Part shown: piece by piece, positions 798 through 3,033 of the stretch
How the letters are laid out: every line of letters starts with the position of its first letter
Numbering within the stretch: the first letter of the stretch is position 1
Source of the DNA: Candidatus Omnitrophota bacterium
GTDB lineage: Bacteria > Omnitrophota > Gorgyraeia > Gygaellales > Profunditerraquicolaceae
NCBI GenBank assembly: GCA_003644385.1
Contig: QNCD01000004.1
Location: 1 to 46,022 of the forward strand
Direction: 5' to 3'
DNA length: 46,022 nt
Program-made: the position numbers and the translations under genes
Notes under the pieces: generated by a model
Told to the model about the DNA's origin: nothing
Databases searched by the model: none
What the model saw: the letters and a program-made list of their open reading frames with translations, nothing else

Positions 798-1015
798 AAT
801 ATTATAGAAAGGACGATACTGATTAATATTGACGTAGTAATGGGAAAATAAAAAGTAAAGTTTTTCTTCTCTACCAGTATATCACCGGGCAGGCGCCCCA
901 GGTAAGGAATTTTATTAACAAAAGTTAACAAGACCCCCAGGCCCACTAAAATAATTCCGAAAATTATTAATGCTTTGCCGATTTCCTGCATCGCTCTATC
1001 TCCGAATAAATGCAT
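776..1015 (-). CDS. DUF2905 family small membrane protein (start probably at internal MQEIGKAL)
   Basis: KIPYLGRLPGDILVEKKNFTFYFPITTSILISIVLS is typical of DUF2905. Confidence 0.85.
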   Translation of the reverse strand: MHLFGDRAMQEIGKALIIFGIILVGLGVLLTFVNKIPYLGRLPGDILVEKKNFTFYFPITTSILISIVLSIIFWLWSRR

Positions 1016-1509
1016 CCGCAGTATTTCTGGCAGTATATGCCGCCGGATTTCGCCTTTTCATGCGCCCTCTTAAATCCGGAGCGGAAATCCTCGTAATAAA
1101 AATTAATGCCTGATTCTTCTGCTGCTTCTTCACCGATTTTCTTAAGTAACTGCTGATCCTGATAAGGGCTGACTAACAAGGTAGTGGAAAAGGCTTGAAA
1201 ATTTTTTTCTTTTGCCGCCTGCGCGGTTTTCACCAGGCGCAGCTTCCAGCATATAGAACACCTCTGCTGGCTAGACTCATTCAAATTAACTGCCTGAAAG
1301 TATTCCTGGGGCGCGTACTCCGGGTAAAAAACTTCTGCATTCTGTGTCTTACTATAATCCTCAACCGCTTTTCGTCTGTTTTTATATTCAGAAAAGGGGT
1401 GGATATTCGGGTTATAGAAAAATCCGCTTACCTGATAACCCTTTTCTCTCAAGCGCTCTAAAGGATAAATCATGCACGGCGCACAACAAGTATGAAGTAA
1501 CAGTTTCAT
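967..1509 (-). CDS. queH: Epoxyqueuosine reductase QueH (DUF208)
   Basis: LLLHTCCAPC N-terminus, FFYNPNIHPFSEYKNR, CSICWKLRL, CQKYCGCIYSE motifs. Confidence 0.9.
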   Translation of the reverse strand: MKLLLHTCCAPCMIYPLERLREKGYQVSGFFYNPNIHPFSEYKNRRKAVEDYSKTQNAEVFYPEYAPQEYFQAVNLNESSQQRCSICWKLRLVKTAQAAKEKNFQAFSTTLLVSPYQDQQLLKKIGEEAAEESGINFYYEDFRSGFKRAHEKAKSGGIYCQKYCGCIYSEIERCRKSAKH

Positions 1510-1914
1510 AAATTAAATTTAATAAACCTGTTTGCTTTCTCGCTCAAGTCGGTTTTTCCCGCCTTCGGCGGGACGCCAAAGGTCTCTCACATTTTCGGCG
1601 GCTGCGGAACTCGCCGTCCGAATGCTTTCGCGTTCGGATTCCCGAAAATGTTCGAGCGTGCTTTGGCTAAAACCTCCATTCGCTCGAAACCAAACAGCTT
1701 CATTAATTTAAACGAGTTGCTTTAACCCGATCTTTTGAGGGGGTGGCTTGGGCTGATTTCGAGCGGGGCCTCCGAGGATGCCGAACGGGCACGGTTCACC
1801 CGCTATAACAAGTATGTGAGAGTGAGGCACCGCAGGGGAGCGAAATTTTGCCACGCTGGGGCAAAATGAGCGTCCCCGCGAGAAACAGACCGAGACAGGA
1901 CCCGCTCAAATTAT
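1510..1914. other. Structured noncoding island of about 400 nt (candidate ncRNA or dispersed repeat element)
   Basis: No ORF in the track; multiple perfect inverted repeats: CCCGCC/GGCGGG 1558-1572, CATTTTCGG/CCGAAAATG 1590-1598/1642-1650 enclosing two hairpins, TTCGAGCG/CGCTCGAA 1651-1658/1681-1688, ATTTTGCC/GGCAAAAT 1845-1852/1860-1867. Confidence 0.6.
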
Positions 1915-3033
1915 TTAAAATAACTCGTTTTGATTCTCTTTTTTGTATTTCAATCCGAAGTGCTCAAAGGTAAGCCTGGTCGCCATCCTCCCGCGCGGAG
2001 TGCGCTTGAGGTATCCGGCTTTCCGTAAATGTGGCTCAACTGTATCGGCGATCGTATCAACTTCTTCGTTAAGGCTGGCAGCAAGTGACTCAATCCCTAC
2101 CGGCCCCCCGTCAAACGCCTCTAATATCGTCTTTAAAACCCTGCGGTCAATATCATCGAGACCTGCCTTATCAATGCCCAAGTCAGCCAAAGCCATACAT
2201 GTAGTCTCCATGTTTATCTTATCTATTTTTAAAACCTGGGCATAATCTCTGATCCGGCGCAATAACCGGTTGGCAATACGCGGGGTTCCGCGTGAGCGAT
2301 TAGCAATCTCCAATGCCGCCTGCTCTTCGATATCAAGGCTTAATACTTTAGCGGAATTTTTTATAATTTTAGCCAGGTCTTCAGGCGGATAAAAATCCAG
2401 ATGGTAGAATATGCCAAACCTCCCCCGAAGAGGTGCAGCCAACAGGCCTGTCCTGGTAGTCGCGCCCACCAGAGTAAAGGGCTTAAGGTTAAATTTAATT
2501 GTCTTGGCATACGGCCCTTTATCAATGATAAAATCAATCTGAAAACTCTCCATTGCCGGATACAAAAATTCTTCCACTACTTTGGATAAACGGTGTATCT
2601 CGTCAATAAAAAGAATATCGCCTTTCTCCAGATTTGTTAATATACCGATCAAATCTCCAGCCCTTTCTATGGCCGGGCCGGAAGTAGCGGTAATCTTACC
2701 TGACATTTCATGGGCGATAATATGAGAAAGCGAAGTCTTTCCTAATCCAGGAGGCCCGCTTAAAAGCACATGCTCCAAGGGCTCTTTTCTTTGCTTTGCC
2801 GCCTGCATGGAAATCTTTAAATTTTCGACGATCTCCTTATGACCGATGAATTGCGAAAGTTTTTTCGGCCTTAAGGAAATATTGAGGACTATGTCTTCCT
2901 CAGATTCCTGTCCCTGGCGAAGATAATCTTTTTCTAAAGTATCTAGCTCTTCCCGCCTGTCTTTATCAGATGCTTTTTTATCGGAGAAGGTTTTTTTTGC
3001 TTTAATTATTTTCTGTCTTATTCCTTCTGTCAT
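1915..3033 (-). CDS. ruvB: Holliday junction branch migration helicase RuvB, with N-terminal extension
   Basis: LRPKKLSQFIGHKEIVENL, LLSGPPGLGKTSLSHIIA, GDILFIDEIHRLSKVVEEFLYPAME, RGTPRIANRLLRR. Confidence 0.95.
   Translation of the reverse strand: MTEGIRQKIIKAKKTFSDKKASDKDRREELDTLEKDYLRQGQESEEDIVLNISLRPKKLSQFIGHKEIVENLKISMQAAKQRKEPLEHVLLSGPPGLGKTSLSHIIAHEMSGKITATSGPAIERAGDLIGILTNLEKGDILFIDEIHRLSKVVEEFLYPAMESFQIDFIIDKGPYAKTIKFNLKPFTLVGATTRTGLLAAPLRGRFGIFYHLDFYPPEDLAKIIKNSAKVLSLDIEEQAALEIANRSRGTPRIANRLLRRIRDYAQVLKIDKINMETTCMALADLGIDKAGLDDIDRRVLKTILEAFDGGPVGIESLAASLNEEVDTIADTVEPHLRKAGYLKRTPRGRMATRLTFEHFGLKYKKENQNELF

Follow-up and report, generated by a model that had tools for sequence, protein, structure and literature searches.

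The window analysed here, a stretch of 46,022 nucleotides, belongs to the 1.74-Mb draft genome (G000) of an Omnitrophota bacterium, and the relatives in which the same repeats are found are likewise Omnitrophota. Two of its minus-strand genes, queH and ruvB, each confirmed by a Pfam match, are separated by a gap of 405 nt, bounded by the start of queH (1509) and the stop of ruvB (1915). An earlier, sequence-only reading had described this gap as a single non-coding, hairpin-rich island of about 400 nt, with a higher GC content than its flanks. The absence of coding capacity and the abundance of hairpins, as well as the difference in composition (49-56% GC in the gap versus approximately 42-47% alongside), were borne out. 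No Pfam match was obtained with any of the open reading frames of the gap, no Rfam family fits it, and its hairpins are far stronger than those of shuffled DNA. The gap is, however, not one island: a BLAST search against its own genome returned two distinct sets of copies, which correspond to two adjacent and unrelated repeats, here called A and B. The features of the locus are as follows.

967-1509, minus strand: queH (PF02677, E 2.5e-61), the downstream neighbour
1513-1712, minus strand (the better-folding one): element A, a palindromic repeat of approximately 200 bp, from copies in its own genome and in relatives, and from folding
1551-1674: conserved inner stems of A, from folding and alignment
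1558-1572: inner hairpin H1 of A, CCCGCC-TTC-GGCGGG, variable, with other hairpins or almost none in its place in relatives, from alignment
1590-1650: stem CATTTTCGG/CCGAAAATG of A, enclosing the hairpin TCCGAATGC/GCGTTCGGA (1617-1638)
1734-1910, plus strand: element B, a palindromic repeat of approximately 177 bp, from copies in its own genome and in relatives, covariation and folding
1845-1867: apical hairpin of B, of the ATTTTGCC-ACGCTGG-GGCAAAAT type, with compensatory changes among copies
1915-3033, minus strand: ruvB (RuvB_N, E 2.8e-72), the upstream neighbour

Architecture of the elements

Element A, the outer end of which lies 3 nt off the queH start codon, yields z = -9.5 on the minus and -6.5 on the plus strand when folded with DNA parameters and compared with dinucleotide shuffles; the corresponding values for B are -6.4 on the plus and -2.6 on the minus strand. 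In A, folding and alignment give inner stems between GGTTTT (1551-1556) and AAAACC (1669-1674) and between GCCAAAG (1575-1581) and CTTTGGC (1661-1667). Most of the individual stems that had been noticed by eye were recovered, namely CATTTTCGG/CCGAAAATG (1590-1598/1642-1650), TCCGAATGC/GCGTTCGGA (1617-1638), CCCGCC-TTC-GGCGGG (1558-1572) and, in B, ATTTTGCC/GGCAAAAT (at about 1845-1867), but a further one, TTCGAGCG/CGCTCGAA (1651-1688), is absent from both the folds and the comparative structure, other pairings occupying that region. The three-way junction proposed at the same time is found in the window copy, which is without a further arm, H2, between 1610 and 1613; in most relatives this extra arm sits between GAACTCG and CCGTCC.

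Across copies, A measures approximately 200-260 bp and B approximately 165-190 bp. The ends of A are of the form AATGAATCTG.., and its outer stem can be of wholly different sequence with the pairing retained. In B, the outer stem is TTTGAG...CTCAAA, the ends are GGGGTGGCTTGG..CCGAGACAGGACCCGC, the B-type end motif being GCGGGTGGCTTGG.., and the apical hairpin is replaced in other copies by TTGCGGC/GCCGCAA or GGTGCGCC/GGCGCACT. The ends of B are also those of mini-B, a hairpin of 62-66 bp with near-identical copies at many sites of two genomes (G029 and G032), and, judging from the sequences, B looks like this basal hairpin enlarged by others added at its tip.

A third palindromic repeat, C, starts with TTTATGGTTTTCGCTTCCGG and ends with AAAACCATAAA (L040, L044 and L074 of genome G010). 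It travels with B, and is also nested within a B-type hairpin in L220. A composite of C and B of approximately 360 bp is present at three sites of G010, with 94-98% identity and unrelated flanks.

Distribution among genomes

By BLAST, copies of A lie on contigs C36, C24 and C1 of the source genome and those of B at two sites on C5, and further copies were found in relatives; in all, 42 of the 58 genomes considered (the source genome and its relatives) contain matches to the elements, the copy counts of both A and B being derived from sequence searches. A frequently has B directly after it. The core of A is matched exactly 32 times in a collection of 85k species, 31 of these entries being labelled Omnitrophota or Omnitrophica and one just 'bacterium'; it is present in 25 of 285 genomes sampled across the phylum, mainly from the same family and order. 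The range of B is wider and includes other families of the class, plus one genome outside it.

Well-placed copies of A and B are intergenic, and no common neighbour gene was seen. Three apparent insertions into genes were discarded, the translations, inspected by eye, looking like spurious open reading frames; in the apparent case at L217 the true start likely follows the element, also as judged by eye. Nothing similar was found in phage records, and matches to the end motif in IMG/VR, in which the right arm is missing, look like chance. Neither A nor B was found at the 30 RNase P loci examined (L167-L196), where the RNase P RNA matches span 326 to 562 nt. The literature search found no account of palindromic intergenic repeats in Omnitrophota.

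Signs of movement and nesting

In a comparison of empty with filled junctions that is one between species, with no same-species empty site in the sample, the gap between ruvB and queH was found to be just 0-18 nt long in 14 of 30 genomes and to hold A, B or mini-B in eight, that of the window included. The make-up and orientation of the elements differ among these eight genomes, in four of which queH is not recognised downstream of the element-carrying ruvB junction; the remaining junctions contain other palindromes, GGGGAC-type repeats or an open reading frame. At this site, in G001 and G030, B lies within the stem of A. Furthermore, at a locus shared by two genera (L061 in G048:C32 and L063 in G052:C256), A occurs in opposite orientations between the same flanks, so that it has either been inverted in place or been inserted twice.

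A perfect palindrome of 20 bp, CCTGCCTGCCGGCAGGCAGG, with approximately 45 copies in G029, interrupts mini-B or B between ACAG and GACCC, between CCCAA and GACAG, and between AACCC and GAGCGG, with no target duplication. It also occurs in G048, G050, G017 and others (e.g. L231, L233, L235 and L020), is often located inside B-type elements, and was not found printed in the literature searched.

Complementarity continues into the flanks of B-type elements over approximately four to five bases, a 4-nt inverted match being present in 15 of 32 copies, compared with 5.1 expected. TA is found on both sides in 17 of the 32, and most of the exceptions, among them TT facing AA (six times), GA facing TC and CA facing TG, are again complementary rather than directly repeated. 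Beyond TA there is no direct repetition, with a 3-nt direct repeat in one copy of 32 only. Such flanks fit either insertion at small palindromes or paired ends that drift.

Pairing at the DNA or at the RNA level

The sequence-only reading had left the choice between a structured RNA and a mobile or palindromic element. Covariation is indeed strong: the consensus of B comprises 55 pairs with 88.1% of cells paired, double-sided changes affect 43 of the 55, a level that none of 500 shuffles attained, and pairing is halved when the partner is slid. Thus, both the copies and the covariation, the absence of which from relatives had been named beforehand as evidence against an element, are present. 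In spite of this covariation, the conserved pairs are Watson-Crick almost without exception and G-U exceeds A-C only slightly. G-U pairs have shares of 2.8% in B (plus strand) and of 2.0% and 3.4% in A (plus and minus strand, respectively), whereas RNase P RNA from these genomes, taken through the same alignment-and-fold pipeline, has 13.9%, a comparison that is made among related copies and with one RNA family as the control. The ratio of G-U to A-C is 40:33 for B (plus), 46:58 for A (plus), 84:43 for A (minus) and 324:91 for RNase P RNA; folding per strand inflates the G-U of that strand, and the values for the elements span 0.8 to 1.95. A cruder test, counts of 1x1 mismatches with G-U barred from the folding, failed to tell the elements (A 30:20, B 16:10) from RNase P (29:21) and plays no part in the argument. 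The scarcity of G-U pairs alongside covariation is read as pairing at the level of DNA, and conservation in this form, rather than as an RNA gene, is what the alignments look like. Pairing might be kept up because a folded strand of DNA is under selection or because template switching corrects it.

For these reasons, A and B are unlikely to be structured non-coding RNAs not described before, whether cis-regulatory or trans-acting, that were duplicated by happenstance, although strong covariation, conserved internal loops and the better folding of one strand in each element (minus in A, plus in B) would agree with such RNAs. The same holds for orientation: in tandem contexts A lies on the strand of the neighbour genes in 19 cases and on the opposite one in four (n = 23), and this might point to a function in transcribed form. 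The lack of an Rfam match, the 2-3% of G-U pairs, the lack of a shared neighbour gene among the copies seen, the multiplicity of copies per genome and the missing element at the same junction in relatives speak against an RNA. The copy of A in the window is among the exceptions to co-orientation, and for B the co-oriented and opposite cases number 17 and 15 (n = 32). Of the two possibilities in the original reading, therefore, the mobile one is strongly supported and the RNA one is disfavoured.

Relation to known repeats and candidate movers

Short non-coding palindromic repeats between genes include ERIC, Correia and RUP elements and the Rickettsia palindromic elements; such repeats either keep conserved ends, usually with duplications of TA or the like, or lie within genes, as the Rickettsia elements do. 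A and B differ in that their outer stems covary and their copies are intergenic. In cyanobacteria, small dispersed repeats made of hairpin units of approximately 21-27 bp are reportedly inserted with precision into other repeats (Elhai, 2008); although they belong to another phylum, their likeness to the 20-bp palindrome is greater than that to A or B.

The terminal inverted repeats and the 17 of 32 B-type copies with TA on either side would suit miniature inverted-repeat elements (MITEs) that belong to a TA-targeting DDE transposon of the classical kind. We consider this improbable, in that TA is itself self-complementary, the flank exceptions are mostly complementary and not directly repeated, 3-nt direct repeats are missing from 31 of the 32 copies and the outer stems of A vary freely in sequence. 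Moreover, within the TA-targeting IS630 type (DDE_3), the DDE family covered by the search, transposase genes were found in three of the 58 genomes and in none of G000, G010, G029 and G032, with no link to the elements.

REP units are 21-65 nt long, usually carry a GTAG or CGTC tag and adjoin a RAYT gene, although atypical classes with other tags exist (PMC6006769, PMC3733652). With REPs and BIMEs, A and B share being intergenic multi-copy DNA hairpins, with several families per genome and mosaics, but A (approximately 200-260 bp) and B (approximately 165-190 bp) are nested and too long for this class, mini-B alone being near REP size, and they carry no unpaired 5' GTAG or CGTC tag. Mobilization of A and B as REP/BIME-like elements by Y1 (RAYT) transposases is accordingly a proposal of low probability. 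Y1 genes are present in 43 of the 58 genomes (in 34 of the 42 with element matches and in nine of the 16 without) and one copy of A is near a Y1 gene in G040, but elements occur in genomes without any Y1 match, e.g. G029, which is 98% complete, a B-type end was found at none of 30 Y1 loci, and several Y1 genes carry different repeats, such as the inverted GGGGACGTTTC beside that of the source genome. A and B are not associated with Y1 genes here, and the link to Y1 transposases is weak. At L120, L121, L111, L129 and L136, Y1 genes are flanked by inverted repeats of the GGGGAC/GGGACACCC type, which also fill the ruvB-queH gap in some relatives.

Transcription terminators between operons, which strong hairpins between tandem genes might suggest, are very unlikely. 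An intrinsic terminator has its T-tract after the GC stem, whereas here the T-rich flank precedes the hairpin and the A-rich flank follows it; a scan gave one terminator-like site, versus a shuffle mean of 1.3, and tandem placement (92%) equals the local baseline (92%). Integron attC sites were also discarded, the RYYYAAC...GTTRRRY boxes being absent from the ends of A and B and the neighbours being housekeeping genes.

The closest behaviour among the systems compared is that of the GC clusters and double-hairpin elements of fungal mitochondria, which are gene-free, mostly intergenic palindromes of approximately 42 nt with a putative AG target duplication, and which disperse, fuse and are reshuffled into hairpins of larger size, with stems more conserved than loops and by a mechanism that is unresolved (PMC4478555). 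Like them, A and B are gene-free intergenic palindromes that spread and merge, but in bacteria, with a size range of 62-260 bp for the whole set and with no duplication of at least 3 nt seen.

Proposed mechanism and implications

Taken together, it is likely that the gap between queH and ruvB consists of two adjacent mobile palindromes, one of family A and one of family B, which are non-coding and non-autonomous and belong to a wider set of hairpins. We find it similarly credible that members of this set have inserted time and again, in many genera of Omnitrophota, into the gaps between genes and into one another. As regards present activity, for which the comparison is between species only, mobility is putative. 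A parasitic or neutral nature is probable for A and B, in preference to a role as RNA gene or riboswitch, and the gap is best filed as an interspersed palindromic mobile element, a new variety of a known kind.

For these mobile palindromes, a single-strand hairpin intermediate would be the preferred mechanism: the elements may travel as single-stranded DNA in folded form, recognition depending on its shape and on short internal loops that are conserved, and incoming hairpins would tend to enter the centres of palindromes, growth of the elements thus proceeding from within. The mover could be host replication or recombination, or an undetected recombinase. A more far-reaching version, which we put forward tentatively, is that of a self-assembling bacterial mobile DNA, in which single-stranded hairpins with no transposase of their own favour palindrome centres, growth is by nesting and correction at the DNA level keeps the arms complementary.

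The finding carries a caution, namely that covariation between genes, however strong, does not by itself signal an RNA; the paucity of G-U pairs sets these palindromes apart from RNase P RNA in one pipeline. Such elements would account for gaps rich in hairpins, puzzling otherwise, throughout a large phylum that is uncultured, and the empty and filled junctions would offer a natural system for studying the insertion of hairpins into hairpins.
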